IMG/VR virus record: IMGVR_UViG_3300008267_000914
Span: 1 to 30,739 of that record
Origin: a virus
Length of the DNA: 30,739 nt
Strand: one strand, 5' to 3'
Notes under the pieces: model-generated
What the model was told of the DNA's origin: nothing
What the model saw: only the letters and a program-made list of their open reading frames with translations
Database searches by the model: none
Translations under genes and position numbers: made by a program
Part shown: piece by piece, positions 17,010-30,280 of the stretch
Numbering within the stretch: the stretch's first letter is position 1
Layout of the letters: each line of letters begins with the position of its first letter

Positions 17010-17222
17010 TTACTTATCTGAATCTTGCAATAGTCTTTGTTTCAAACATTCAAGATAAACTAACGTATCGACCAATTCTTCTTGTGCGTGTTCAAGCCAA
17101 GCCATTGTTGTAAGTTTTGCAGGTGTAACGGATTGACCGTATTTCTGCACACCTTTTTCCGTTTGCTTAATAAGTAAAGCACTCACTGCGTTCAGAACAG
17201 TATTTGTTTTAATCTCCTGCAT
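17010..17222 (-). CDS. MazG-like nucleotide pyrophosphohydrolase family protein
   Basis: 70 residues. The pattern LIKQTEKGVQKYG ... MAWLEHAQEELVDTLVYLECLK fits short phage MazG-like proteins: an all-alpha fold whose EExxD residues (QEELVD) bind Mg and the triphosphate. Family members hydrolyse (d)NTPs; some phage versions lower ppGpp or clear non-canonical dNTPs. At 70 residues it is a minimal version, lacking the second acidic motif of longer members. ATG 17222 has GGAGG nine bases upstream, inside the end of thyX, and the two genes overlap by 14 bases. Last gene of the - strand operon. Confidence 0.65.
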   Translation of the reverse strand: MQEIKTNTVLNAVSALLIKQTEKGVQKYGQSVTPAKLTTMAWLEHAQEELVDTLVYLECLKQRLLQDSDK

Positions 17223-17907
17223 TGATTAGTTCCTCCAAACTCACAGGGAAATGTTCTCTTGTTAAGAGATAAACTGCTTTTGCATACTCTTGGAACTCAA
17301 ACTGCGCATCTGGTTTTAATCGCTGATTGATTAGGTGTGCAACGGATTGAAGCGATCCTGTCCAGTACCAACGAACGTACATTGCGTAAGCTGGTAAGAA
17401 TAATCGTGCTTGTTCCGCACAGATGCCCTTGTCCATTGCCCACTTATAAAGTGCTTCACCATCTTGAATATGGCGATCAAGCGTTGCCATCATTTCAAAT
17501 CCAAGTTCATCAGATACAATGCTACCAGAACCTTGCTTTGAGTTTGCAGGAGCAGAACGCCATTCAGTTTGGGTCGGAAGATAAAACTCTGGTTCTTCCG
17601 TCACATACCTGCGAGAGCTTTCGTTCCACGCGTCCATAACGTGATCTGATCCAATGCAGTATTTCCACCATTGACGTGCAATCATAAGTGGTGCATAAAT
17701 CTCAAACTGCAAGGTTGCATGACGGAACGGAGAAGTATGTCCATGCTGTGCAAGGAAACGGATCAATCGATGGTCACGATCATCTAATTCTGTTTTCTTT
17801 CTGTTGTAGCTAACACGTGCCGCATTAACAACGGTTAGATCGGAACCCATTACATCATGTAGTTTTACATAACCAGTATCAAATACATGGATCATGTCTT
17901 TGCTCAT
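17209..17907 (-). CDS. thyX: Flavin-dependent thymidylate synthase ThyX
   Basis: 232 residues. Converts dUMP to dTMP with methylene-tetrahydrofolate and FAD/NADPH. Seen: LTVVNAARVSYN, AQHGHTSPFRHATLQFEI, APLMIARQWWKYCIG, then DAWNESSRRYV and YLPTQTEWR, and the C-terminal LFLPAYAMYVRWYWTGSLQSVAHLINQRL with the R-x4-LP and QSVAHL...R patterns of ThyX. The classic RHRxxSxNExSxRY signature is altered: RHR is replaced by KYC and about six extra residues (around DHVMDA) precede NESSRRY, a variant I associate with phage ThyX. I chose ATG 17907 over the in-frame TTG 17913 because GGGG at -14 spaces better to the ATG. Works with dUTPase (dUMP supply) encoded at the other end of the operon. Confidence 0.92.
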   Translation of the reverse strand: MSKDMIHVFDTGYVKLHDVMGSDLTVVNAARVSYNRKKTELDDRDHRLIRFLAQHGHTSPFRHATLQFEIYAPLMIARQWWKYCIGSDHVMDAWNESSRRYVTEEPEFYLPTQTEWRSAPANSKQGSGSIVSDELGFEMMATLDRHIQDGEALYKWAMDKGICAEQARLFLPAYAMYVRWYWTGSLQSVAHLINQRLKPDAQFEFQEYAKAVYLLTREHFPVSLEELINAGD

Positions 17908-18085
17908 TATCAAGAAACCCCACTTCTGTTAGATAGTCTATTACATGGTAAATTAAAACCTCAACTTCATCACGGTGTGGTACATAACCGTCTTGGACAA
18001 GCCCTTCAAATACATAATCTACTGCATCTGCAATGTCTAAGTTGGCAACGAATCGGAGTGGGTTGTTGCAGTTTGGGCAACGCAT
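17879..18085 (-). CDS. Small CxxC protein overlapping both neighbours
   Basis: 68 residues. Begins MRCPNCNNPLRFV: a single CPxC knuckle of zinc-ribbon type. A helical, acidic remainder follows (IADAVDYVFEGLVQDGYVPHRDEVEVLIYHVIDYLTEVGFL). There is no second Cys pair, so a complete ribbon would need a partner or dimer. GGAAGGTGAG seven bases before ATG 18085 supports the start. The gene overlaps the resolvase gene by 49 bases and thyX by 29 bases, dense even for this operon. Function unknown; possibly a regulator or protein-binding adaptor. Confidence 0.6.
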   Translation of the reverse strand: MRCPNCNNPLRFVANLDIADAVDYVFEGLVQDGYVPHRDEVEVLIYHVIDYLTEVGFLDNEQRHDPCI

Positions 18086-18570
18086 ATGTCGCTCACCTTC
18101 CCATACTTTAAGAAATAAATTCCGTGACGAATGGCATCACGCATATGCAAGTTCGTTGAACGACCTAAGCAATAGTGCTTTCTTCCCTTTAGTTCAAACA
18201 CACCCTGCCTTACAAGGATTGGATCAGTGACACGTGCTTTATCCTTAGGGTCTTGGAATACAATTGGAATGTTCCACTTGTAGCAGTGCATCCGTAGGTA
18301 TCCAATGAGTTGCGGTGTTTCCATCATGGAGTTAGATTGTGCACTAGCTTTTCCTGCAAATAAACGATAAGACTCACATACGACAATATCAATACTGAGA
18401 TCAATAAGGTCTGAAATAGCTTGCCAATACATTTCAATACGTGCAAAACTAGACGATTCAATGTCACCAAACTCCTTTAGTTCACCGTCCTCAAAGATCG
18501 CCCATCCTGTCGTTCCATCCCCTTCATTTTTCGAGAAGTTTCCAGACGGATCAAGCGTTAGAATTTTCAT
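18037..18570 (-). CDS. RuvC-like Holliday-junction resolvase
   Basis: 177 residues. RNase H/RuvC fold signatures: MKILTLDPSGN (D7), GTTGWAIFEDGEL, IVVCESYRL (E66), and LHMRDAIRHGIYF (H142, D145). These match the acidic triad that binds two metals in RuvC-type junction endonucleases. Such phage enzymes cut branched replication and recombination intermediates before packaging, which fits the Sak4-like ATPase and DUF669 protein in the same operon. The start is the second of two tandem ATGs (18573, 18570); GGCGG is six bases before 18570. The reading frame begins inside the 3' end of the transporter gene. Confidence 0.78.
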   Translation of the reverse strand: MKILTLDPSGNFSKNEGDGTTGWAIFEDGELKEFGDIESSSFARIEMYWQAISDLIDLSIDIVVCESYRLFAGKASAQSNSMMETPQLIGYLRMHCYKWNIPIVFQDPKDKARVTDPILVRQGVFELKGRKHYCLGRSTNLHMRDAIRHGIYFLKYGKVSDICVAQTATTHSDSLPT

Positions 18571-19108
18571 CATCCACCGCCAATCGCAGTTTAAGCGCAA
18601 ACCACACGACAGTTGCTCCGATGAATTGAATAACTGACTTTACGAAAATTTGACCTAAAATCGCCATTCCAACAAACTCCCACGGAATAAATCCTGCTCC
18701 TAACGGTGATAAACCAATAATAACAAACAGTACACTATCTAAAATTCCTCCGACTAATCCCGAATATAACACGCGAAAACTCTGCGGCATTTTTAATCTG
18801 CTATATACTTCTGTATCGGCAGTTTCACTAAAAAGGAATGTGATAGCTGACGCAAAAACAATCCATAGTGTATCGTCTAAAATAGTTGATGTGGCCGCAG
18901 ATAAAGTCATAGCCAAAAAAATTGTTGCATACGTGTATTTTCTACCGATAATATTCTGAACCGCATCCCTTAAAATAAATGTAATTCCGATTAAAAAAGT
19001 TCCTAGCGGAATTAAAAAATCACCAAAGTGTATTGGAGCAAAAGATGCTGTCAATACGTTTGCTAATACAATAACTGATAAGTACGCTAAAATAATTATC
19101 CATTTCAT
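18551..19108 (-). CDS. yhhQ: Queuosine-precursor transporter, YhhQ/VUT family
   Basis: 185 residues with about six membrane spans (near 4-24, 28-48, 58-78, 80-95, 111-133, 145-170). Family phrases: YLSVIVLANVLTASFAP, GTFLIGITFILRDAVQ, RKYTYATIFLA, SAATSTILDDT, FLFSETADTEVYS, and ILDSVLFVIIGLSPLG. YhhQ-family proteins import preQ0/preQ1 (7-deazaguanine bases); phage copies have been reported beside 7-deazaguanine DNA-modification genes. Here it follows the dpdA-like gene with four bases between, so it probably supplies that enzyme's base substrate by salvage. No queC/D/E/folE biosynthesis gene is in the window. Acts in the host cell membrane. Confidence 0.87.
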   Translation of the reverse strand: MKWIIILAYLSVIVLANVLTASFAPIHFGDFLIPLGTFLIGITFILRDAVQNIIGRKYTYATIFLAMTLSAATSTILDDTLWIVFASAITFLFSETADTEVYSRLKMPQSFRVLYSGLVGGILDSVLFVIIGLSPLGAGFIPWEFVGMAILGQIFVKSVIQFIGATVVWFALKLRLAVDDENSNA

Positions 19109-19713: not shown

Positions 19714-19928
19714 TATTCTTTGATACCTCCTTTCTTGCGATCTTGCCACACGTCGTCGTACTCCAATAGTTCAATAAACTTTTTATCAATTCGGTCTAGG
19801 CGTTTTTCACCTAGACCTAAAACGTAACTAACGGCTTTTCGATAGACGTTCAAAGCATATTTTGCACCTTGTATCTGCAACTGTTCTTCATATTTTTTCT
19901 GTTTCTTTTTCTGGTGCGCTTTGTTCAC
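19713..19928 (-). CDS. Unknown 71-residue basic protein between methyltransferase and dpdA
   Basis: Starts at GTG 19928 with GGCGG nine bases upstream; overlaps the methyltransferase end by 41 bases and the dpdA start by one base. The N-terminus is a run of Lys/Gln (HQKKKQKKYEEQLQ) followed by a helical segment (GAKYALNVYRKAVSYVLGLGEKRLDRIDKKFIELLEYDDVW). No motif recognised. Being locked between two DNA-modifying enzymes, it may be a DNA-binding accessory or partner to one of them; this is only positional inference. A partner protein for DpdA is not expected for the small phage type as far as I know. Confidence 0.6.
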   Translation of the reverse strand: MNKAHQKKKQKKYEEQLQIQGAKYALNVYRKAVSYVLGLGEKRLDRIDKKFIELLEYDDVWQDRKKGGIKE

Positions 19929-20832
19929 TTAATAACACCGCCTTAATTGCCATTGCAATTTCTTTTACTAAGGGTACGGTAACTGAATTACCAAACTGTT
20001 TATATGCTTGTGTGTCGCTAATCACAATCTCGTAACTATCTGGGAATCCTTGCAACCTAGCGTATTCTCTAGGTGTAAGTCTGCGAACAGATAGATTATC
20101 AATAATCTTTACATGATGATGGCCGCCCTGTACTGCTGTCGCTGTTGGTGAAATTCCTTCTGGGTCATGCACTCTACGAATCTGATCTTTACCCAACATA
20201 TCAAGCATTCCTGCAACGATAATATCTTTTGACGAAGTAATTGTTTGCGTAATTATCCTATCTATAAAGTATTTTTTAGGCACACCATCTTCTAAAATAT
20301 CTTTCAACTTAGTTAGTGCAACTTTATTTTCTAAAGGAAGATCAATTTTATTTTTGTATCCAACAATATAGTATCGTTCACGGTTTTGTGGTACACTCCA
20401 ATATTTTGAGTTATAAAGTTGAATGGACATTTCATAACCCCTAGCATTGAACTCTCTCTCTAGTGTAGGGATATACTTTTTTAATCCTTTTACGTTTTCA
20501 GCTAACAATACAGAAGGTTTCTCATCAGTTTCATCTAACAATCGCATCACTTCGTAAAACAATCCAGAGCGTGTACCAACTTCCATTCCTGCTTGCTTAC
20601 CTGCGACAGACAAGTCTTGGCATGGAAATCCAAACGTCCATACATCTGCTTTAGGTAACTCCGCAGCAGTTAATTTTGTTATATCCGCAACTACACCGTG
20701 CTTACCGACATTATGTTGATAGGACTGAACTGCATACTTATCAATGTCACAAGCATAAACGATTTCGAGCCCTGCTTGTTGAAACCCTAAACCCATACCG
20801 CCGCAACCACAAAACAGATCAACAACTTTCAT
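19888..20832 (-). CDS. DNA (cytosine-5) methyltransferase
   Basis: 314 residues; all main motifs present in order: I DLFCGCGGMGLGF (5-17), IV GFPCQDLSVAGK with catalytic C71, VI ENVKGL (E112), VIII QNRERYYIVGY, IX RRLTPREYARLQGFP and X QFGNSVTVPL. Transfers methyl from S-adenosylmethionine to cytosine C5. The target-recognition region between VIII and IX (about residues 175-265, with GMLDMLG, GISPTATAVQGGHHHVKI) decides the site, which I cannot read. I place the start at ATG 20832, one base after the polymerase stop, with AAGGGGAAG upstream. No endonuclease partner is seen, so it is probably protective (anti-restriction) rather than part of an R-M pair. Confidence 0.92.
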   Translation of the reverse strand: MKVVDLFCGCGGMGLGFQQAGLEIVYACDIDKYAVQSYQHNVGKHGVVADITKLTAAELPKADVWTFGFPCQDLSVAGKQAGMEVGTRSGLFYEVMRLLDETDEKPSVLLAENVKGLKKYIPTLEREFNARGYEMSIQLYNSKYWSVPQNRERYYIVGYKNKIDLPLENKVALTKLKDILEDGVPKKYFIDRIITQTITSSKDIIVAGMLDMLGKDQIRRVHDPEGISPTATAVQGGHHHVKIIDNLSVRRLTPREYARLQGFPDSYEIVISDTQAYKQFGNSVTVPLVKEIAMAIKAVLLSEQSAPEKETEKI

Positions 20833-20833
20833 T

Positions 20834-22897
20834 TTACTTCCCCTTATCTGCCCATGTTGTTGTAGTTCTCTCCACTTCTGCAACAATTGGAACGTGAATG
20901 TTCGGTGCATCTTCCATCATTTGACGAATGGATATGATGTGTTTTTCTTCACCAATAGGAACGTCGAAGATTAATTCATCGTGAACGCATAAGACCATTC
21001 GCATCTTTAGTTTTTTGTCTTTGATATATCGATCAATCAGAATCATTTTTTCTTTCAACATATCTGCGCATGAGCCTTGAATCATATAGTTCGCACACTT
21101 ATAGAAACGGTTTGGATTGTTGATGTAGTACCTACGTCCATATAAATTCTGAATGTACCCTTGCTTTTCCATTACGGAGTCCACCCATTTCTGATATTGA
21201 ACAACCATCGGAAAGGCTTCGGTGTAACCACGGTTCATTGCTTTCGCTTGCTCCAGTTCAATCTCCAACACTTGCGCAGCTTTTGTATCGCCGCCGCCGT
21301 AGTTGCGCATGAAATTGAATGACTTGCCGATGGAACGCCATTTCTTAAACTGCTTTTCGTCTAACGATTCTGGATCAATGTCCATTGCTTGTAATGCTTT
21401 GATTGCTGTCGCACTATGAACGTCTGTCGGTGTCCACGCTTTACCGTTTTCCATGATCCATGCAGACGATCCATCAGCTTGCTTTTCGTTCCAATCATTT
21501 ATGTCCTTGAACTCAAAACCACCGATGTAATGTTTGCACTTGAACGGCATATACGCACGGCATAGGTTCACATCACCGCCAAATGGTAAAGTGTAATGTG
21601 CTTGTGCGCGAAGTTCAATCTGTGAAAAGTCGATGAAGTACATATAATCTTGTGTTGTGGTGAATGCTTTACGAGGATGAAAGATTTCTTCCCCATCTTC
21701 ATTTACAATACGGTCTTTAGGAGACTGTTGCATATCACCGCTAAAGCGTCCTGAGATCGGATTGAATTGATTCATACTTGTGTAAATGCGTCCATCGTAT
21801 TCTGAAGCATCTAAGATACGTTCAATGTAGGTTTCTTTCCACTTTTCAAGTCGGCGTAGCTTAGAGATAACCTGCGCTAGTTCATCACCTTCTCGACCTT
21901 GTTTCGTAAGAAACTGTTTATCCGTCGATTTCGGTTCGATCCCTAAACGTTCGGTGTAAATCTGCTTAATTAGTTTGTGCTGTCCGACATTAAACTCAAC
22001 ACCTGCAAGCTGATGTGATAGGACTTTCAAATCTTGTATGTATTGCTCCAGTTTGTAGTTGGCTTGCTTTAGATATTCACGGTCTACTTTAATTCCTTGT
22101 CGTTCCATCTTAAATACGACAGGTAATAGATCAAATTCGCGGGTCATGGTCGTCTGTTGCTGACGCTCCGCAACGACAGGAAGTGCTTTCTTTACAAGGA
22201 TGTTTGTTAGGATTACGTCTACAGCTAGATACGGAATCATTATCTCCTGCGGTACGTCTTTGTAAGTTGGCTTCGGATAGTTCTTGTTCCAGTTGTTTAG
22301 AATTTCCACAACCTCCGCAGGTAAATCCTCCGCACCGTCTAGCGCATTTTGCATTCGTTTCAGTGACCAACCGACGCTTTTCAACATCGCTATGAGAATC
22401 TTCTTGTCTGATGCTTCTTTCGCTTTGAGCCATGACTTAACCCCTTTCTCATATTTATCTGCTTGTGGGTCAATGTATTTCTTTGCAATGTGTTTCAAAG
22501 CTAATGAATCACCACCATCGCGAATGGACACTGCTTCAAAAGATAGACGAGCAAGGCACATACTGTCGCCCCATTTGATATAACTAACAAAATCGTCATT
22601 GATTATGTTAGCTACCATGTGGGCATCATACACGGCATTATGTGCGAACACACGTCGAACCAACTTAGACCAATTCGACAATTGATACAGGTTATCCTTC
22701 GTTGCGTTGAATACAAACACTTTTGTTCCCCACGCAACCGCAGCTAGAAACGGACGAGATTTCTTAATGTGAAGCCCATCCGTTTCTGTATCGAAAGTAA
22801 TGTACGCAGGGTTATCTTTCTTTAGTAAATCGGTAATGATTTTTGTATCGTCTAAAAACTCAACCGTGTATTTCTCGCTTGCCATTTCAATAATCAT
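20834..22897 (-). CDS. polA: Family A DNA polymerase with 3'-5' exonuclease
   Basis: 687 residues. Exonuclease: ExoI FDTETDGL (D36, E38), ExoII FAHNAVYDAHM, ExoIII YLAVDVILTN. Polymerase: motif A FIDFSQIELR (D423), motif B/O-helix RSIGKSFNFMRNYGGG (K525, F529, Y533), and motif C CVHDELIFD (H639, D640, E641). F529 at the position of Taq F667 predicts normal discrimination against dideoxynucleotides. There is no 5' nuclease domain, as in T7-type replicative polymerases. The ATG overlaps the primase-helicase stop (ATGA). This is the phage replicase, working with the primase-helicase and DUF669 protein. Confidence 0.95.
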   Translation of the reverse strand: MIIEMASEKYTVEFLDDTKIITDLLKKDNPAYITFDTETDGLHIKKSRPFLAAVAWGTKVFVFNATKDNLYQLSNWSKLVRRVFAHNAVYDAHMVANIINDDFVSYIKWGDSMCLARLSFEAVSIRDGGDSLALKHIAKKYIDPQADKYEKGVKSWLKAKEASDKKILIAMLKSVGWSLKRMQNALDGAEDLPAEVVEILNNWNKNYPKPTYKDVPQEIMIPYLAVDVILTNILVKKALPVVAERQQQTTMTREFDLLPVVFKMERQGIKVDREYLKQANYKLEQYIQDLKVLSHQLAGVEFNVGQHKLIKQIYTERLGIEPKSTDKQFLTKQGREGDELAQVISKLRRLEKWKETYIERILDASEYDGRIYTSMNQFNPISGRFSGDMQQSPKDRIVNEDGEEIFHPRKAFTTTQDYMYFIDFSQIELRAQAHYTLPFGGDVNLCRAYMPFKCKHYIGGFEFKDINDWNEKQADGSSAWIMENGKAWTPTDVHSATAIKALQAMDIDPESLDEKQFKKWRSIGKSFNFMRNYGGGDTKAAQVLEIELEQAKAMNRGYTEAFPMVVQYQKWVDSVMEKQGYIQNLYGRRYYINNPNRFYKCANYMIQGSCADMLKEKMILIDRYIKDKKLKMRMVLCVHDELIFDVPIGEEKHIISIRQMMEDAPNIHVPIVAEVERTTTTWADKGK

Positions 22898-25368
22898 TTT
22901 CCACCATCCTGCGTTAGCGGTGTCATATACAACCGTTGTTCGTTTTTCTTAATTGCATCAATCGCTTGTCTGAATCGGCGTGTTGCTTCAACGCCATCTT
23001 TCGTTACTCGGACAAGCCCATTCGTACATAGGTTATTAATCACTTCACTAAACTTGTCACGATCTAAACCTGACATGGTTTGTAGATTGTAAACAGGGAT
23101 TGGCATAATACTCTGCTGTACAGACGAAATCAGAATCTTATAGTTACGAAGCAGACCTGCCATCAATTGATTCACTGCTTCATTTGTTTCGTCAAGCATC
23201 CGTCGCTCACGGACATATTCACGAAGTCGGAACAGGTCGTTGTCATAGCATCTACGTAAGAACTCAGCAGACCAATCGATGTGTTCACGCCTAACAATTA
23301 AATGCTCACCGTCATCCGTTGAGAACGTAGCACCTGCACAAGCTACTGCAACACGAGCGAGTTTCTTCCACGCTTCTGCACCAAAAAATTTAATTCGAGA
23401 ATCGAACATTTGGTTTAGTTGATTCGCAATCTGGATACAATAATCTGCAACGGACTCTGCAAAGATAATTTGATCTTCTGTCCGTGACCATGACCAGTAA
23501 ATGAGATTGCGATACACCTCGCTAGGTAACGCAGAATGTTTTGGCTGTAGTAGCGGTGACGATCCTGAACCTTCTTCACGGACAACTAACATACAGAAAT
23601 CAAACCGTGCAATATCTTCATCCGATCCAACTAAATCAAGAACAACGTCCACCCCAGACGGATACTCACGAATGTCTTTCGATGTTCCGTTAGATAATAC
23701 GCGAGGATTCGACAGCCATAACATCCGTGTATGCGCAGGAGCTTTACCATGTGAAATCTTTTGAACCGTTGCATAACCTGATGAACGCATATCCGTAAGC
23801 ATTGCCATCACATCACGGTTCATCCCAGACATTTCATCAAGAATGAGAATCCCTTTGTTATTACGTGGGATTGTTCCCCATGCAATACGGAAACCGCCGT
23901 TAGACATTTTCTCTGCACCGCCTAAAAGACCAGCAGTTGTTGCACCTTTGACAGCTAACATATTCCCAACTTTGTAATGATCCTGCATTCGTTTTGCAGT
24001 TTCGGATTTCCCTGTACGAGATTCACCAACAATCAATCCCTCAGGATATCCTTTTAGATCAACGTGATTCATTTTAAAGCGTAATGGTGAATGATACATG
24101 ATATTTACCGCATGAACAATCATTTCTGGTGGTTGGAACGTTCGTGTAAGTGCATGAGCTTGATTCACTCGTTCACGCATCTTCTCAAATGGATCACCTT
24201 GAAACACCTTTAGTTCTTCGTAAATCACGCTAAGTAAGTTTTCTTCATCAAGTGCCCAATGCCCTGAACGGTTTGCAAGTGGACAAGTTTCACAGACCTT
24301 GTTACCTTGCACCGCACCGCGACAATTCCATTCAATTGCTGATGGTGTTCTCATCGATGCGTCATAATCACCTGCCATCACCACACGGCATGATAGATCG
24401 CGCCCATGATAACGTCCTTGCGGTATGTTCCATAAGTGGACAAGCGGATAGGCTTTATTCTTTTCTTCCTTCATCATTTCTTCATTGAACAAAACCGCAT
24501 CATCAATACATTTCTGTAGATAATCTGAACCATGTCCAAGTTTAACTAGTGCATCCGTAATATCTTTCTCTGACTTTTCACCACTTAACCCTGAAAGAAG
24601 AACGATACGAACCGTTGCACCAATTTGCTGTAGCTTGTAAGCAACCAGTTTACTTGCCGAAATCCCAGCTGCATCCATGTCGTAGCAGATGTTGACGGTA
24701 CGTCCTTTGAATAAGTGAAGGAATACGTCTGGGAACGTTCCTTCTCCTCCTGTAACGCAGAGTGCATTGAATCCAAACTGTCTAGCGAGAAGGGTATCAT
24801 TTTCTCCTGCGCATAAAAGAGTATCAATTCTATCATCTGCAATCCAATGGTCGAACGGAAAGAGTAATGGGCTAGAACCTTTTCGAGAGCGCATCTTTGG
24901 CTGTCCGTTAGGTTCGTAGGTTCGTACATCACAAAGCTGTCCGTATACCAGAATGGGGTATCGGATACCGTCACCTGTGTAACCGAGTTGGTATTTTCGG
25001 ATTGTGTCATCATTCAGTCCACGCTCATTCCTTAGATAATCTGCGTATTCCGTAACCATCAACGCATCAGTAGTTGTTTCCCAAACGTCAGGTAATTCTT
25101 CAAAATCAGAAAATTTACCAAGAAATGCAATGGCTTTCTCATAACTGATCTGATAGACCGATGAGATAAAGCCAATTTCAGATAGTCCACTTTCTCTACC
25201 TTCTGCAAAGCAGGTTTTACAATGGAACAATCCCTTATTCAAATTGATGTGTGCTGATGGTCTAGTGTCGTAGCCTTTGTCATGCTCAAATGGACAGCAG
25301 ACGTTGGCTTCACCATTTGTTTTTAAGGTCGGATTGTTAAAGTACCAACTAAAAAATTCTCCTGCCAT
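22894..25368 (-). CDS. Primase-helicase: zinc finger + TOPRIM + MCM-like AAA+
   Basis: 824 residues. Start: ATG 25368, because GGAGG lies five bases upstream (inside an alternative ATG at 25380 that has no ribosome site). Residues 20-60: CHC2-like zinc finger (C24/C25, H29, C50, C53). Residues 100-180: T7-type primase core (YLRNERGLNDDTIRKYQLGY, KMRSRKG). Residues 180-270: TOPRIM (GENDTL with E189; YDMDAAG with D230, D232). Residues 330-400: linker with a Cys cluster. Residues 430-620: AAA+ with Walker A GESRTGKSET (K454), Walker B LILDEMSG (D511, E512), a pre-sensor hairpin (ATVQKISHGKAPAHTRML), sensor 1 WLSNPR and an IARFDFCML block matching the MCM SRFD motif. The end looks like a winged helix. 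Normally TOPRIM primase is fused to a RecA-fold helicase; here the motor is MCM-like. Confidence 0.85.
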   Translation of the reverse strand: MAGEFFSWYFNNPTLKTNGEANVCCPFEHDKGYDTRPSAHINLNKGLFHCKTCFAEGRESGLSEIGFISSVYQISYEKAIAFLGKFSDFEELPDVWETTTDALMVTEYADYLRNERGLNDDTIRKYQLGYTGDGIRYPILVYGQLCDVRTYEPNGQPKMRSRKGSSPLLFPFDHWIADDRIDTLLCAGENDTLLARQFGFNALCVTGGEGTFPDVFLHLFKGRTVNICYDMDAAGISASKLVAYKLQQIGATVRIVLLSGLSGEKSEKDITDALVKLGHGSDYLQKCIDDAVLFNEEMMKEEKNKAYPLVHLWNIPQGRYHGRDLSCRVVMAGDYDASMRTPSAIEWNCRGAVQGNKVCETCPLANRSGHWALDEENLLSVIYEELKVFQGDPFEKMRERVNQAHALTRTFQPPEMIVHAVNIMYHSPLRFKMNHVDLKGYPEGLIVGESRTGKSETAKRMQDHYKVGNMLAVKGATTAGLLGGAEKMSNGGFRIAWGTIPRNNKGILILDEMSGMNRDVMAMLTDMRSSGYATVQKISHGKAPAHTRMLWLSNPRVLSNGTSKDIREYPSGVDVVLDLVGSDEDIARFDFCMLVVREEGSGSSPLLQPKHSALPSEVYRNLIYWSWSRTEDQIIFAESVADYCIQIANQLNQMFDSRIKFFGAEAWKKLARVAVACAGATFSTDDGEHLIVRREHIDWSAEFLRRCYDNDLFRLREYVRERRMLDETNEAVNQLMAGLLRNYKILISSVQQSIMPIPVYNLQTMSGLDRDKFSEVINNLCTNGLVRVTKDGVEATRRFRQAIDAIKKNEQRLYMTPLTQDGGK

Positions 25369-25383
25369 AAATTCCTCCATATG

Positions 25384-25413
25384 AAAAGCCGATCAACGCT
25401 ATGTCAATCGGCT
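25384..25413 (-). terminator. Leftward terminator/attenuator before primase-helicase gene
   Basis: Read on the - strand, AGCCGAT (25413-25407) pairs with ATCGGCT (25393-25387) around a 13-base loop, followed by TTT (25386-25384). It sits between the ssDNA-binding-protein gene and the primase gene and would reduce read-through, giving more binding protein than helicase. Confidence 0.6.
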
Positions 25414-25423
25414 CTCGGTGTTC

Positions 25424-25900
25424 TTACAGGAAGTCTACTTCATCTGCACCACTGTTTGTTGCAAATGGGTCTGCGCTTGCTGGCGTTGCATACTCAACAG
25501 TTGCTAGGCTGTACGATTTAATACGCGCTTGTTTCTTTGTTTCACCGTTGTAGGTGTTATCTTCTTGAATCACATTGATACGAACTGGCTTATATAAAAT
25601 CGCATTGCGGAAATCTTCAAGCGTTGCGAAGTCTTTACCGTTTGGAAGTCCAACTGCTTTTGCTACTTGTTGAAACTTGAACATCGCTTTCTCAGATACT
25701 ACGTAGTAGTCCCACAACTTCTGTTTGCCGTGCGGTTGTTTCACATCTTTACGAATGGTGATTGTCGCTTTAATCATCGGCGATCCTTTAGATGATTCTT
25801 TGATTTCACAATCCGAAATAATGCACTCGTACTCACCTTCAGCAACTAACTCATAGTCACCTGATCCTGCTTGGTTGTAATCGATTTTTAAGAAACTCAT
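25424..25900 (-). CDS. DUF669-like single-stranded-DNA-binding protein
   Basis: 158 residues. YELVAEGEYECIISDCEIKESSKGSPMIKATITIR is the recognisable start of DUF669-family phage proteins: an OB-fold-like beta barrel. It continues LWDYYVVSEKAMFKFQQVAKAVGLPNG...FRNAILYKPVRINVIQEDNTYNGETKKQARIKSY. The acidic, hydrophobic-ended tail (SGADEVDFL) looks like an SSB-type protein-interaction tail. Members accompany Sak4-type ATPases and family A polymerases, and probably coat single strands during replication and annealing. Its ATG overlaps the upstream gene's stop by four bases. Confidence 0.8.
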   Translation of the reverse strand: MSFLKIDYNQAGSGDYELVAEGEYECIISDCEIKESSKGSPMIKATITIRKDVKQPHGKQKLWDYYVVSEKAMFKFQQVAKAVGLPNGKDFATLEDFRNAILYKPVRINVIQEDNTYNGETKKQARIKSYSLATVEYATPASADPFATNSGADEVDFL

Positions 25901-26187
25901 TGTAATTCCACCTTTGTTTTAGTTTGTTTTTGTTCTTCTATTGGATTCATTAATATTTTAATGAACTTCAATATTTCATTTGGTAGTTCAAACTCATCTT
26001 CATCTAACTCATATTCTTTGAGCATACTGTAAAAAGACATTGCCACTACTAACAATTGTTTGTCCGGCAAAATGTTCATCGCTTCATAACTCATACCGTC
26101 TTTCTCCGATACAATTATGATTGCACTTTTTACATCCTCAATTAATCCATCACTATACACAATCTTTACCGCATGAGCTTGACGCAT
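25897..26187 (-). CDS. Unknown 96-residue protein between Sak4-like and SSB-like genes
   Basis: Begins MRQAHAVKIVYSDGLIEDVKSAIIIVSEKDGMSYEAM: a two-strand beta start. Then a helical acidic half follows (SFYSMLKEYELDEDEFELPNEILKFIKILMNP) with a Gln/Lys tail. GAGGTTAG before ATG 26187 supports the start. No family recognised. Its place between two single-strand-DNA-handling proteins suggests an accessory to replication or recombination (inference only). Confidence 0.6.
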   Translation of the reverse strand: MRQAHAVKIVYSDGLIEDVKSAIIIVSEKDGMSYEAMNILPDKQLLVVAMSFYSMLKEYELDEDEFELPNEILKFIKILMNPIEEQKQTKTKVELQ

Positions 26188-26227
26188 AATCTAACCTCGT
26201 TCATTCAGATGTTTTTGATTCTAACCT

Positions 26228-26242
26228 TGAAAACGATTTTCA
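26228..26242. repeat. Short inverted repeat between genes
   Basis: TGAAAA-CGA-TTTTCA, a perfect 6-base palindrome with a three-base centre, lies in the 62-base gap between the ATPase stop and the next gene. It could be an mRNA hairpin or operator; it lacks a T run and is AT-rich enough to be chance. Confidence 0.35.
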
Positions 26243-26249
26243 GCAATAA

Positions 26250-26822
26250 CTATTTTCGAACATAACCTAATTTCTCAAAAATCTCTGACCAGACAGGGTT
26301 CAATATTTGTGACTCTAAAGGCTTTGCGTGTTTGGACTGACGAATCCATAAGCAGTGAATCGAATCATCATTGCGTTTCGTTAGTTGATGCCAGGCTTTT
26401 GTTGTCCGTGTGATTAGATCACGCAGATCGCCCCAATCAGCCATTGCACCAAACTTCGAAGAAATTTCTCTACGACGCGACGGAGCATAGACCGTTGCAA
26501 CATATTCTTTAATCAGTTCTTGCAATGCTGAAATAGAGTCGATCACGTATAAATCGTAGTCACACTTTACTTTCTCATTTCCAATTTGGAAATAACCACG
26601 TTTCACGGAGTCCGTGATCTCAATAAAATCTTTGAAGTTATCTACAGCAATGCGGTCAACGTTTTTCGCTTGTGACAACACCGCAGACCCACCTTCCATG
26701 TCGATCAAAAGCGTTTTAAACTTCGGATCATCTGCTGTAGAAGTCTTTCCGACTTTTGGTTTACCGTATAGTATACCGTGAAACCCTTCCTTAACTTCTG
26801 CTGGCTTCGTTATTTTGAGCAT
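26250..26822 (-). CDS. RecA/Sak4-like ATPase (single-strand annealing/recombination)
   Basis: 190 residues. Walker A is GKPKVGKT (20-27); KTLLIDMEGG follows and YDLYVIDSISAL is the Walker B strand; SKFGAMADWGDLRDLITRTTKAWHQLTKR is a shared helix region of phage AAA proteins of the Sak4 type. These RecA-core proteins cooperate with SSB-like proteins (here the DUF669 gene downstream). I chose ATG 26822 because GGAGG is eight to nine bases upstream; the frame is open further but without a ribosome site. The C-terminal 35 residues lack the expected final core strands and Gln/Glu sensor, and the protein is shorter than the 220-250 usual for the family, so a divergent or trimmed C-terminus is possible. 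Confidence 0.72.
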   Translation of the reverse strand: MLKITKPAEVKEGFHGILYGKPKVGKTSTADDPKFKTLLIDMEGGSAVLSQAKNVDRIAVDNFKDFIEITDSVKRGYFQIGNEKVKCDYDLYVIDSISALQELIKEYVATVYAPSRRREISSKFGAMADWGDLRDLITRTTKAWHQLTKRNDDSIHCLWIRQSKHAKPLESQILNPVWSEIFEKLGYVRK

Positions 26823-27018
26823 CGTTAGCTCCTCCATCCCAGTTGATTCCGTCAATGTAAATACCTAACGTATTTAAAACAAATACAATGCCACCTGTTT
26901 TTCCAACTAAAAAATTAAATTCGTCGCGATCAACTTCTGCTTTCAATTCTTTTGCACAATCATCGTAAACCTTCATAATCTTTACCACATGATCTTGCGT
27001 AATCTCGATTTGTTGCAT
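26791..27018 (-). CDS. Unknown 75-residue small protein upstream of Sak4-like gene
   Basis: Starts at ATG 27018 with GAAGGTGATGTA upstream; overlaps the ATPase gene by 32 bases and shares its start with the stop of the zinc-finger gene (TAATG). Helical N-terminus (ITQDHVVKIMKVYDDCAKELKAEVDRDEFNFLV), then a hydrophobic KTGGIVFVLNTLGIYIDGINW stretch and a polar tail. No family recognised. Tight coupling to the ATPase suggests a shared process. Confidence 0.55.
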   Translation of the reverse strand: MQQIEITQDHVVKIMKVYDDCAKELKAEVDRDEFNFLVGKTGGIVFVLNTLGIYIDGINWDGGANDAQNNEASRS

Positions 27019-27154: not shown

Positions 27155-27934
27155 CTATTGTTGTCTTTTTTCTTGTGAAGTCCATACCGTAAACGTTCCT
27201 GTATCAAAAACAATTTCAGCACGTAGACTTAAATTTGGACTTAGAATAATTCCTTTTAGTTCTTGTTGGTTTTGTAGGTAGCAACTGCTTAAAGCACACG
27301 TTGCCGCCATATCGCTATTTAGATTCTTAAATGGTTGTGTAATGTCAATTTTGTTTATACCGTATCCGCTTGTACTATGAATTAATCGCACACTTTTTAG
27401 TTTTGATTTTGACTTTTTGGCATTTACTACTTTTACTTCCGCATTAATTGAACTAAATACAGACAGCCCACTGTGCTTCATGATACCTACTCCTAAAATC
27501 TGTACACGATAACCGTTTGTAAGTTCTGATTGTGCCTTGTACCTAAAGTTATATTCGTTTGAATAATACGCGTCTGCTGATGGTGTAGCGATGTTCATTA
27601 ATCCAATCATTAATACAACTAATGCAAAAATTACAGCGAACTGTTTTAGATACGCATCTATAATTCCACCACGATATGTTCCATTATGAACTAATATAGG
27701 GTTTTGAAAGTATTCTTTAATCTGCTCCTCTGCTGACAATTCGGGTTCATATCCCAGTACCAATGCTCGCATGATTACATCAACATTTTGGCTATTTAGT
27801 ATTTGTAATTCTTTATTTTCCCATTTACCATGTCGCGTCATTTCTGCGATTGTGTAATCAAAATTTCGAGACAGAGTCATTGCATTATCCAACGCATCGC
27901 ACACTTCTTTAGGTAGTTTCACTTTTTCTGTCAT
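27155..27934 (-). CDS. Membrane-anchored fusion: duplicated cytoplasmic head plus exported beta domain
   Basis: 259 residues. Residues 1-85 are a paralogue of the next-upstream gene product: both begin MTEKVKLPK(E/D)VC(D/E)ALD and share IMRALVLGYEPEL(S/T)AE. Residues 98-116 form a membrane helix (FAVIFALVVLMIGLMN), followed by ATPSADA, a possible signal-peptidase site, and about 140 residues of beta-rich sequence with one close Cys pair (CALSSC). So the N-terminal 97 residues would stay inside and the rest outside the membrane. No family known to me joins these parts. Possible roles include superinfection exclusion or envelope modification (guess). Start overlaps the previous stop within a junction repeat. 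Confidence 0.65.
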   Translation of the reverse strand: MTEKVKLPKEVCDALDNAMTLSRNFDYTIAEMTRHGKWENKELQILNSQNVDVIMRALVLGYEPELSAEEQIKEYFQNPILVHNGTYRGGIIDAYLKQFAVIFALVVLMIGLMNIATPSADAYYSNEYNFRYKAQSELTNGYRVQILGVGIMKHSGLSVFSSINAEVKVVNAKKSKSKLKSVRLIHSTSGYGINKIDITQPFKNLNSDMAATCALSSCYLQNQQELKGIILSPNLSLRAEIVFDTGTFTVWTSQEKRQQ

Positions 27935-28263
27935 TCTGCATCATCCTCCAACCAGTCGTAATGGATTCCCTGTATCTCAAATACATCTCGAATTGCTTTT
28001 CTGTGGGCTTCTATTTCAAATTCTTCAACATCAACTGGATTCCAATACAATTCTTCCAATTTCTGCTCCGCTGTCAGCTCGGGTTCATAGCCAAGTACCA
28101 ATGCTCGCATGATTTTGTTTGCATCTTGTCTAACCAAAACTTTTTCTAATCGAGTAATGTTATTTGTTGCTACATCATGAATAATGTCTGTATCAAAAAA
28201 ATCTTTTTTAGCCCTATCCAACGCTTCGCAAACGTCTTTAGGGAGTTTCACTTTTTCTGTCAT
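27742..28263 (-). repeat. Tandem gene-segment duplication
   Basis: Two copies of a coding stretch, about 27742-27949 and about 28071-28278. Near-identical blocks include the stop/start junction with the first seven codons and, farther in, the segment encoding IMRALVLGYEPEL. Between these blocks the copies have diverged. The duplication includes the intergenic junction sequence itself and so copied a gene start together with its translation signal. Confidence 0.75.
27931..28263 (-). CDS. 110-residue protein, paralogue of adjacent gene's N-terminus
   Basis: MTEKVKLPKDVCEALDRAKKDF...IMRALVLGYEPELTAEQKLEELYW, ending GIHYDWLEDDAE. The layout (charged helical N-terminus, YEPELTAEQ, C-terminal GIHYDWLE) resembles early proteins of Bacillota phages of the DUF1642 sort; I am unsure of the family. 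Ends in the shared DDAE tail encoded by junction repeat 8, whose TGA overlaps the next gene's ATG. Function unknown; probably an early host-interaction protein given the small-gene cluster. Confidence 0.65.
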   Translation of the reverse strand: MTEKVKLPKDVCEALDRAKKDFFDTDIIHDVATNNITRLEKVLVRQDANKIMRALVLGYEPELTAEQKLEELYWNPVDVEEFEIEAHRKAIRDVFEIQGIHYDWLEDDAE

Positions 28264-29314: not shown

Positions 29315-29460
29315 TCGGCATCATCCTTATCTAAACTGTAGTCATAATCTAAAAACGCATCATCTTTGATATTTTCAACATCTATCCCAAGAATATCAAA
29401 AATTTGACGCATACTTGCAACGCAACAGTTTCCATTGTAGGAGCTATTATAAGCTTTCAT
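29311..29460 (-). CDS. 49-residue small protein, first of the overlapping chain
   Basis: From ATG 29460, within the last codons of the nuclease gene (14-base overlap): MKAYNSSYNGNCCVASMRQIFDILGIDVENIKDD..., ending LDKDDAE. GAGGTT lies about 11 bases upstream, so re-initiation after the nuclease is likely. One CC pair, otherwise helical and acidic; no family recognised. Its 3' end is the first junction repeat. Confidence 0.58.
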   Translation of the reverse strand: MKAYNSSYNGNCCVASMRQIFDILGIDVENIKDDAFLDYDYSLDKDDAE

Positions 29461-30232
29461 CAATCGAAGCAAGAACCTCAGCAGGTGTACGCTCGACTTT
29501 TAGTCTGCGGAAAAACTCTTTCGGTTGTTCTTCTAGCAACTGAAGGAAGTCTGCATAGTCTGCTTTATTCAATCCGCGAAACTCAATCGCGTCACGATAC
29601 ATCTTTGCAGTTGTTTTCTGTGCTTTGTCTTTAGATAATGCACCGCTTTTAAGTACCTTAGGCTCTTGTGGTACATCTTTTAGAATGATGTTATAGATAA
29701 AGCCGTGAACGTTATAGCCAAGTTGCTGTAGTGCCCACCAATAGCGTGAAATCTGACGATCCATGTCTGAATTTTTATCAAATATATCAATACTAGCTGT
29801 TGTTTTATGATCCACGAACCAGATATGACCGTCCTCATCTTCAACAATTAGATCAATCGTACCTGTATAGTTTGTGTTATCGTCTAGTTGTACCGAAAAT
29901 GGAACTTCTACACCGCGAACTGTCCATGTATCATCAAATCCATATGTTGCGATGTAGTTTGTACATACACCTGTCGCAAGTTCAATCATATCTTGCAGTT
30001 GCATCTCGTCTAAACCTTCGGAATTGTCCATGATGTAAACGCGCATGGCTTCGATAGCATCTAATGCTCTGCGGTCACTGTACCAAAGCTCTAAAAACTT
30101 ATGGATCGCTGAACCAATCGTTAGTTTTTCATTACGTTGTTTTGGTTCTAAGTTTTGATTCCAAGCGTAGTCATAACGCTTGCGGCATCTAAGGAAATCC
30201 GTAATTTCTGTACCGCGAAAGTCTGTTTTCAT
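29447..30232 (-). CDS. PD-(D/E)XK nuclease, Cas4/RecB-like
   Basis: 261 residues from ATG 30232 (AAAGGGGCGA eight bases upstream; the frame extends to a GTG at 30280 without a ribosome site). Features: EITDFLRCRKRYDYAWNQNL (family N-terminal helix), GSAIHKFLELW, then core GTIDLIVEDEDGHIWFVDHKTT with D127, D141, K143 as the D...DxK catalytic set, and DRQISRYWWALQQLG (QxxxY motif). This is the RecB-like exonuclease fold; phage members process DNA ends in recombination or degrade host DNA. A single Cys (C16) near the N-terminus and no C-terminal Cys triplet, so the Fe-S cluster of Cas4 is probably absent. Heads the small-gene chain. Confidence 0.82.
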   Translation of the reverse strand: MKTDFRGTEITDFLRCRKRYDYAWNQNLEPKQRNEKLTIGSAIHKFLELWYSDRRALDAIEAMRVYIMDNSEGLDEMQLQDMIELATGVCTNYIATYGFDDTWTVRGVEVPFSVQLDDNTNYTGTIDLIVEDEDGHIWFVDHKTTASIDIFDKNSDMDRQISRYWWALQQLGYNVHGFIYNIILKDVPQEPKVLKSGALSKDKAQKTTAKMYRDAIEFRGLNKADYADFLQLLEEQPKEFFRRLKVERTPAEVLASIDESL

Positions 30233-30266
30233 ATTATCGCCCCTTTGTTTTTCCTGCTCGTTTAAC

Positions 30267-30280
30267 GTAACACGTAACAC
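30267..30280. repeat. Tandem GTAACAC x2
   Basis: Two head-to-tail copies of GTAACAC, 34-48 bases upstream of the nuclease start on the - strand, in an 86-base gap that also contains the hairpin at 30302-30319. A possible operator-like site; no clear promoter boxes flank it. Confidence 0.35.

Follow-up and report, generated by a model that had tools for sequence, protein, structure and literature searches.

We found that a gene in the replication block of a tailed bacteriophage very probably encodes a one-chain replicative primase-helicase, in which a DnaG/TOPRIM primase is joined to an MCM helicase. MCM is the type of DNA-unwinding ring used by archaea and eukaryotes, and the gene brings such an unwinding enzyme together with a bacterial priming enzyme in a single chain, across a large phage family. 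The window, by which we mean the whole stretch of DNA analyzed (30,739 nt), has been classified as viral; its plus strand carries genes for head, tail and lysis functions, and the replication block is on the minus strand. The fusion coding sequence occupies 22894–25380 on the minus strand, as do all of the domains and motifs described below, and encodes 828 aa, with a second possible start at 25368. The sequence-only reading had given the gene as 22894–25368. Its upper end is a genuine in-frame ATG (MAGEFF...), and the closest full-length relative, L002, has the same start, but the open reading frame itself runs to 25380.

By its sequence, the N-terminal half belongs to the DnaG/TOPRIM primases, and it is predicted to synthesize primers. 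Pfam matches above the cut-offs were obtained for a DnaG-type zinc ribbon (Zn_ribbon_DnaG, residues 25–91, 25108–25308; 26.6 bits, cut-off 24.9) and for Toprim_2 (residues 192–274; 23.7 bits, cut-off 22.1), the latter lying within a primase catalytic core and TOPRIM region at residues ~100–300 (24481–25083) that also matches PHROG primase families. Residue conservation was scored in an alignment of 45 family members, 39 of which match Zn_ribbon_DnaG at E ≤ 0.01. The zinc-ribbon cysteines are kept in the window protein and widely in the family (C29 and C54 in 44/45 each, C57 in 34/45). Among the acidic TOPRIM residues, D195, D234, D236 and D273 are invariant and E193 is present in all members but one (44/45); in the basic RNAP-like subdomain K162 is invariant, and R153 and Y155 are nearly so. 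The CHC2-type zinc ribbon, the TOPRIM Glu and DxD, and the basic RNAP-like subdomain are thus all present, in agreement with the earlier assignment of a zinc finger and TOPRIM to this half.

Pfam, a profile search of PDB sequences, profile-profile alignment and structural comparison all identify the C-terminal half as an MCM helicase. Its AAA+ ATPase core lies at residues ~418–600 (23581–24129), and Pfam MCM matches residues 418–560 at 31.3 bits (cut-off 23.3) and 42 of the 45 family members. The Pfam match was rejected as sole evidence, since all 14 bacterial control genomes, E. coli among them, also give PF00493 matches above the cut-off. Stronger discrimination comes from the other comparisons. 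When PDB sequences were compared with a profile of 55 C-terminal halves, the best 60 of 69 matches were to MCM only (best match 3f9v, E = 7e-11). An AlphaFold2 model of the L002 C-terminal half (pLDDT 89.5) gave 50 MCM proteins among its best 50 Foldseek matches, with E values down to 7e-25 and alignments of 530–686 columns, a span that includes the N-terminal tier (N-tier) in the structural match. A model of the whole window protein (mean pLDDT 87.7) likewise gave 50/50 MCM among its best 50 matches, with E values down to 1e-16; here the alignments mostly span 360–500 columns, and the window protein is without half of its N-tier. In hhalign, a profile of nine MCMs from archaeal viruses and plasmids was matched with a probability of 99.9% over 533 columns, reaching from the N-tier across the linker, the lid and the winged helix to the MCM C-terminus.

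The motifs that had first suggested an MCM-like AAA+ motor are all present, and the AlphaFold2 model contains the pre-sensor hairpin. In the family alignment, Walker A (GESRTGKS, residues 452–459, 24004–24027, within GESRTGKSE at 452–460) has G452, R455 and K458 invariant, and Walker B (511–516, 23833–23850, within ILILDEMSG) has E516 invariant. Invariant N558 belongs to the sensor 1 strand ending in WLSNPR (23701–23727). The ARFDF motif contributes the arginine finger R592 (23605–23607) and D594, both invariant, and aligns with MCM SRFDL in the PDB-sequence and hhalign comparisons. Two hairpins are modeled by AlphaFold2: the helix-2 insert, a short hairpin with invariant G487 (487–501, 23878–23922), and the pre-sensor-1 β hairpin (536–548, 23737–23775), in which position 541 is basic (K or R) in 42/45 members. 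Model and alignment further place an AAA+ lid with a sensor-2-like helix at 23245–23451, with K673 invariant and R676 in 43/45. At the position aligned to the sensor 2 arginine of MCM, most members have E or N, and K673 lies one helical turn beyond it; as read from the profile alignment, this departure is variation in one motif. A C-terminal winged-helix domain (residues ~748–800, 22981–23139) is present according to AlphaFold2 secondary structure and the alignment into the MCM C-terminus, and this region also has a weak Pfam match to TrmB.

We considered whether the motor might instead be another helix-2-insert AAA+ ATPase (ComM/YifB, magnesium chelatase or a sigma54 activator) or a superfamily 3 (SF3) helicase whose likeness to MCM goes no further than membership of the wider clade. 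In favor of such an assignment, Mg_chelatase and Sigma54_activat gave weak matches, and PF00493 matches occur in bacteria that lack MCM. However, MCM alone appears among the best 60 PDB sequence matches and the best 50 Foldseek matches of both models, and the 533-column MCM alignment compares with 149 AAA-core columns, in local mode, for the best non-MCM control, E. coli YifB (91.6%). Neither SF3, sigma54 nor RecA/DnaB ATPases occurred among the matches listed for PDB sequences or Foldseek, and SF3 was also absent from those listed for Pfam. Structural comparison against these classes had been set in advance as the refuting test, and in two models it returned MCM throughout the best 50 matches. 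A different AAA+ identity is thus very improbable.

Between the primase and the motor, full-length relatives carry an OB/zinc N-tier that is MCM-like by fold and moderately so by sequence; for the N-tier alone, hhalign gave probabilities of 61–87% against MCM. Its zinc cysteines are kept in 34/45 members. Complete relatives would therefore consist of TOPRIM plus nearly the whole of an MCM. The window copy retains a remnant of this domain (residues ~315–385, with C353, C363 and C366; 24226–24438) and, relative to L002 (76–77% identical) and other relatives, lacks 109 residues, an in-frame loss of 327 nt at 24225/24226 that corresponds to the second half of the N-tier. The loss may have arisen naturally or through faulty assembly. 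All examined relatives that span the region, including the closest two (L002 and L012), have 99–117 aa between the mapped borders, and AlphaFold2 predicts the remnant to be poorly folded (N-tier pLDDT of 57–69, vs 72–93 per block for the L002 domain). These observations suit an assembly chimera of the metagenomic contig or a non-functional copy, with the real virus being full-length, and we give such an explanation, which concerns the window alone, slightly less than even weight. Against it, the deletion is exactly in frame, which would occur by chance in one case out of three, the remaining frame is intact, and in a clade of relatives the gene is interrupted close to this border, which suggests that this spot tolerates change. 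A search of the junction flanks for repeats that could have mediated a deletion returned only matches of chance length.

In that clade (L062, L064, L065, L067 and L069), the primase plus N-tier and the AAA+ motor are encoded by separate overlapping genes, and the split lies at approximately the border of the window deletion. At the split (L062:7470–7545, L064:7482–7524, L065:7509–7545, L067:2253–2304 and L069:7527–7569), the second gene lies in relative frame -1 in all five cases. Programmed -1 frameshifting was not favored, as a slippery heptamer occurs in one of the five and none is shared. Instead, the motor gene starts at an ATG that is kept within conserved TTTCAATG, in keeping with fission of the gene into two overlapping ones, and this is what the arrangement looks like.

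The combination of primase and motor recurs across a large family. Although a single-protein search of viral contigs returned one relative only, an alignment-based scan of IMG/VR gave at least 214 matching stretches, 80 of which were kept. A tblastn search of GenBank phages returned 65 records, 43 of them with full-length matches at below 60% identity, including Paenibacillus larvae API480/SV21 (33%), Bacillus subtilis BSP7/BSTP, Weizmannia Youna2 and Microbacterium Krampus-type phages; the motor half alone as query added Arthrobacter Wollypog, Bacillus vB_BboS-125 and Caudoviricetes sp. MW202864. A scan of ~85,000 prokaryote genomes gave six matches, all on MAG or draft contigs, suggesting that the family is mainly viral. 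The distance matrices of the primase and motor halves are correlated (r = 0.83, with 0/500 permutations as high), which suggests that the two halves have travelled together.

These results also correct existing annotation. In GenBank the proteins are labeled DNA primase, DNA primase/helicase, “DNA primase small subunit” and once “DNA directed DNA polymerase”, although a note for phage vB_BboS-125 mentions similarity to “MCM family protein”. The motor half corresponds to phrog_18685, listed as “unknown function”, which was matched by all 55 C-terminal halves searched (best E = 6e-107) and spans the entire MCM half in L002; this PHROG family thus gains a functional description. No description of a TOPRIM-MCM fusion was found in the searchable literature, a scope outside which Kazlauskas 2016, the likeliest place, falls. 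The family includes phages isolated on hosts that are tractable in the laboratory, Bacillus subtilis and Microbacterium foliorum.

The genomic setting is that of a replication operon. Directly downstream of the fusion gene lies a family A DNA polymerase with a 3′-5′ exonuclease (PolA; 20834–22897, minus strand; PF00476, 200.4 bits; PF01612, 32.5 bits), and directly upstream a single-stranded DNA-binding protein (SSB; DUF669; 25424–25900, minus strand; phrog_378, PF05037). The same strand carries genes for a Sak4-like ssDNA annealing ATPase (26250–26855; phrog_124), a RuvC-like Holliday junction resolvase (18037–18600; phrog_159) and an exonuclease (29447–30280; phrog_1218). The order SSB, fusion, PolA recurs in Paenibacillus phage API480, whose fusion protein has been detected by mass spectrometry and is listed at 105 kDa (PMC6937236).

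Other features of these neighborhoods are recorded here as separate observations. The replication block of the window ends with a thymidylate synthase gene (phrog_85; 17209–17913), and Microbacterium phage Krampus also has one near its fusion gene. If the listed starts are right, a DNA methyltransferase ORF (19888–20910) and the PolA ORF overlap by 77 nt (20834–20910) on the same strand in different frames. Two adjacent ORFs, 27155–27934 and 27931–28263, both match phrog_15527 (unknown function) and either arose by tandem duplication or are parts of one split gene. Elsewhere, PolA is divided into two separated open frames in BSP7 (MH707430, 45996–47342), Youna2 (OM293949, 50062–51780) and the L031 record (24325–26233), either because an intron or homing gene may have interrupted it or because it may be split naturally. 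A QueC/QueD/QueE/FolE set, which belongs to the 7-deazaguanine pathway and likely serves DNA modification, adjoins the fusion gene in Bacillus BSP7 (L004:8060–11709) and Weizmannia Youna2 (L006:6066–8844).

Across 54 relatives' genomes or contigs, no DnaB_C domain was found, and 51 of these records encode their own replicative polymerase (PolA in 35, PolIII-α in 16 others). Some of the records are fragments, so that the absences are lower-grade evidence; eight, however, represent phage genomes in full, either of isolates or assembled. The earlier description of a family A polymerase paired with this protein as an unusual replisome stands relative to T7 and E. coli; within the family, PolA is common and most of the remaining records have PolIII-α. 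The fusion is probably the sole replicative helicase that viruses of this family carry.

An alternative role for the MCM-like half would be that of an origin-melting initiator or a loader of host DnaB, with the primase half acting alone. Phages that encode only a loader or initiator and borrow the host DnaB exist, the AAA+ class includes both loaders and initiators, and a C-terminal winged helix is present. Furthermore, the split clade suggests that primase plus N-tier and motor can work as two chains. Against this role, the entire MCM architecture is kept, including both DNA-gripping hairpins and, in complete relatives, the MCM-like N-tier, the viruses nearly always bring their own polymerase and no detected DnaB, and the primase is fused to the motor in most members, as in T7-type replicative primase-helicases. 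We therefore consider an initiator or loader unlikely and favor a travelling helicase.

As a travelling helicase, the protein would act as follows. The MCM half, which in complete relatives comprises the OB/zinc N-tier, the AAA+ C-tier and the winged helix, would most likely assemble as a ring, by analogy with MCM a hexamer, with ATP held at the interface of adjacent subunits, between the Walker A and B motifs on one side and R592 on the other. The ring would travel 3′-5′ on the leading-strand template, gripping it through the helix-2-insert and pre-sensor-1 hairpins. If MCM polarity is kept, the leading strand would be encircled and the primase would face the fork; attached to the MCM N-terminus, the primase would sit at the leading face of the ring, near the excluded lagging strand, opposite to its place in T7 gp4. 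The TOPRIM domain could then prime that strand, and the primers would feed the neighboring family A polymerase, aided by the neighboring SSB. Eukaryotic Pol α on CMG also primes the excluded strand. Taken together, these considerations raise a tentative model, which we hold to be possible but favor less than its contrary, of a primosome reversed relative to T7 and E. coli in hundreds of phages, with a bacterial primase on the N-tier of a fork-leading MCM ring priming the excluded strand as Pol α does, and with the window lineage able to spare half of the N-tier. The family could provide a minimal model for a primase acting on the leading side of an MCM ring, a problem that is difficult to address in the eukaryotic replisome with its many subunits, and it bears on the exchange of replication modules between the two systems among viruses.

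Finally, the fusion can be placed among known primase-helicase systems. In T7 gp4, a TOPRIM primase is joined to a DnaB-like helicase of the RecA fold. The fusion resembles gp4 in having an N-terminal zinc ribbon and TOPRIM primase, a ring helicase in the same chain and a nearby family A polymerase. However, the DnaB_C-type motor of gp4 was not found here, where the motor is AAA+/MCM, and gp4 has no counterpart to the OB N-tier of the complete relatives. The expected polarity of 3′-5′, as opposed to 5′-3′ for gp4, would mean that the opposite strand is encircled and that the primase takes the opposite position at the fork. MCMs of bacterial phages, prophages and plasmids that occur with an archaeo-eukaryotic primase (AEP) were reportedly described by McGeoch and Bell in 2005 and by Samuels in 2009. 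The sequence-only reading had held that known phage MCMs carry a different primase type, which agrees with the AEP primases of the PrimQH family (Kazlauskas 2018, PMC5862659). As in those elements, an MCM helicase of a bacterial mobile element is linked to a primase; unlike in them, the primase is of the TOPRIM/DnaG type rather than AEP, and Prim-Pol (PF09250), the AEP family scanned for genome-wide, occurred in 0/54 relatives' records. D5-like (SF3) helicases, too, occur as fusions with primases of the DnaG or AEP type (PMC2579912). Where that primase is of the DnaG type, it is joined to a hexameric AAA+ helicase, which is also the arrangement predicted here, but the present motor belongs to MCM and is accompanied, in complete relatives, by an MCM-like N-tier. 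In the SCCmec system, Cch and Cch2 are 3′-5′ AAA+ helicases (Cch being MCM-like), Cch2 is paired with the A-family polymerase CCPol, and priming in the Cch2 operon is done by CCPol-MP (PMC7581432). The fusion shares with it an AAA+ helicase of presumed 3′-5′ polarity, a bacterial mobile element and, with Cch2, an A-family polymerase partner, whereas Cch and Cch2 have no TOPRIM primase and the fusion carries one in its own chain.
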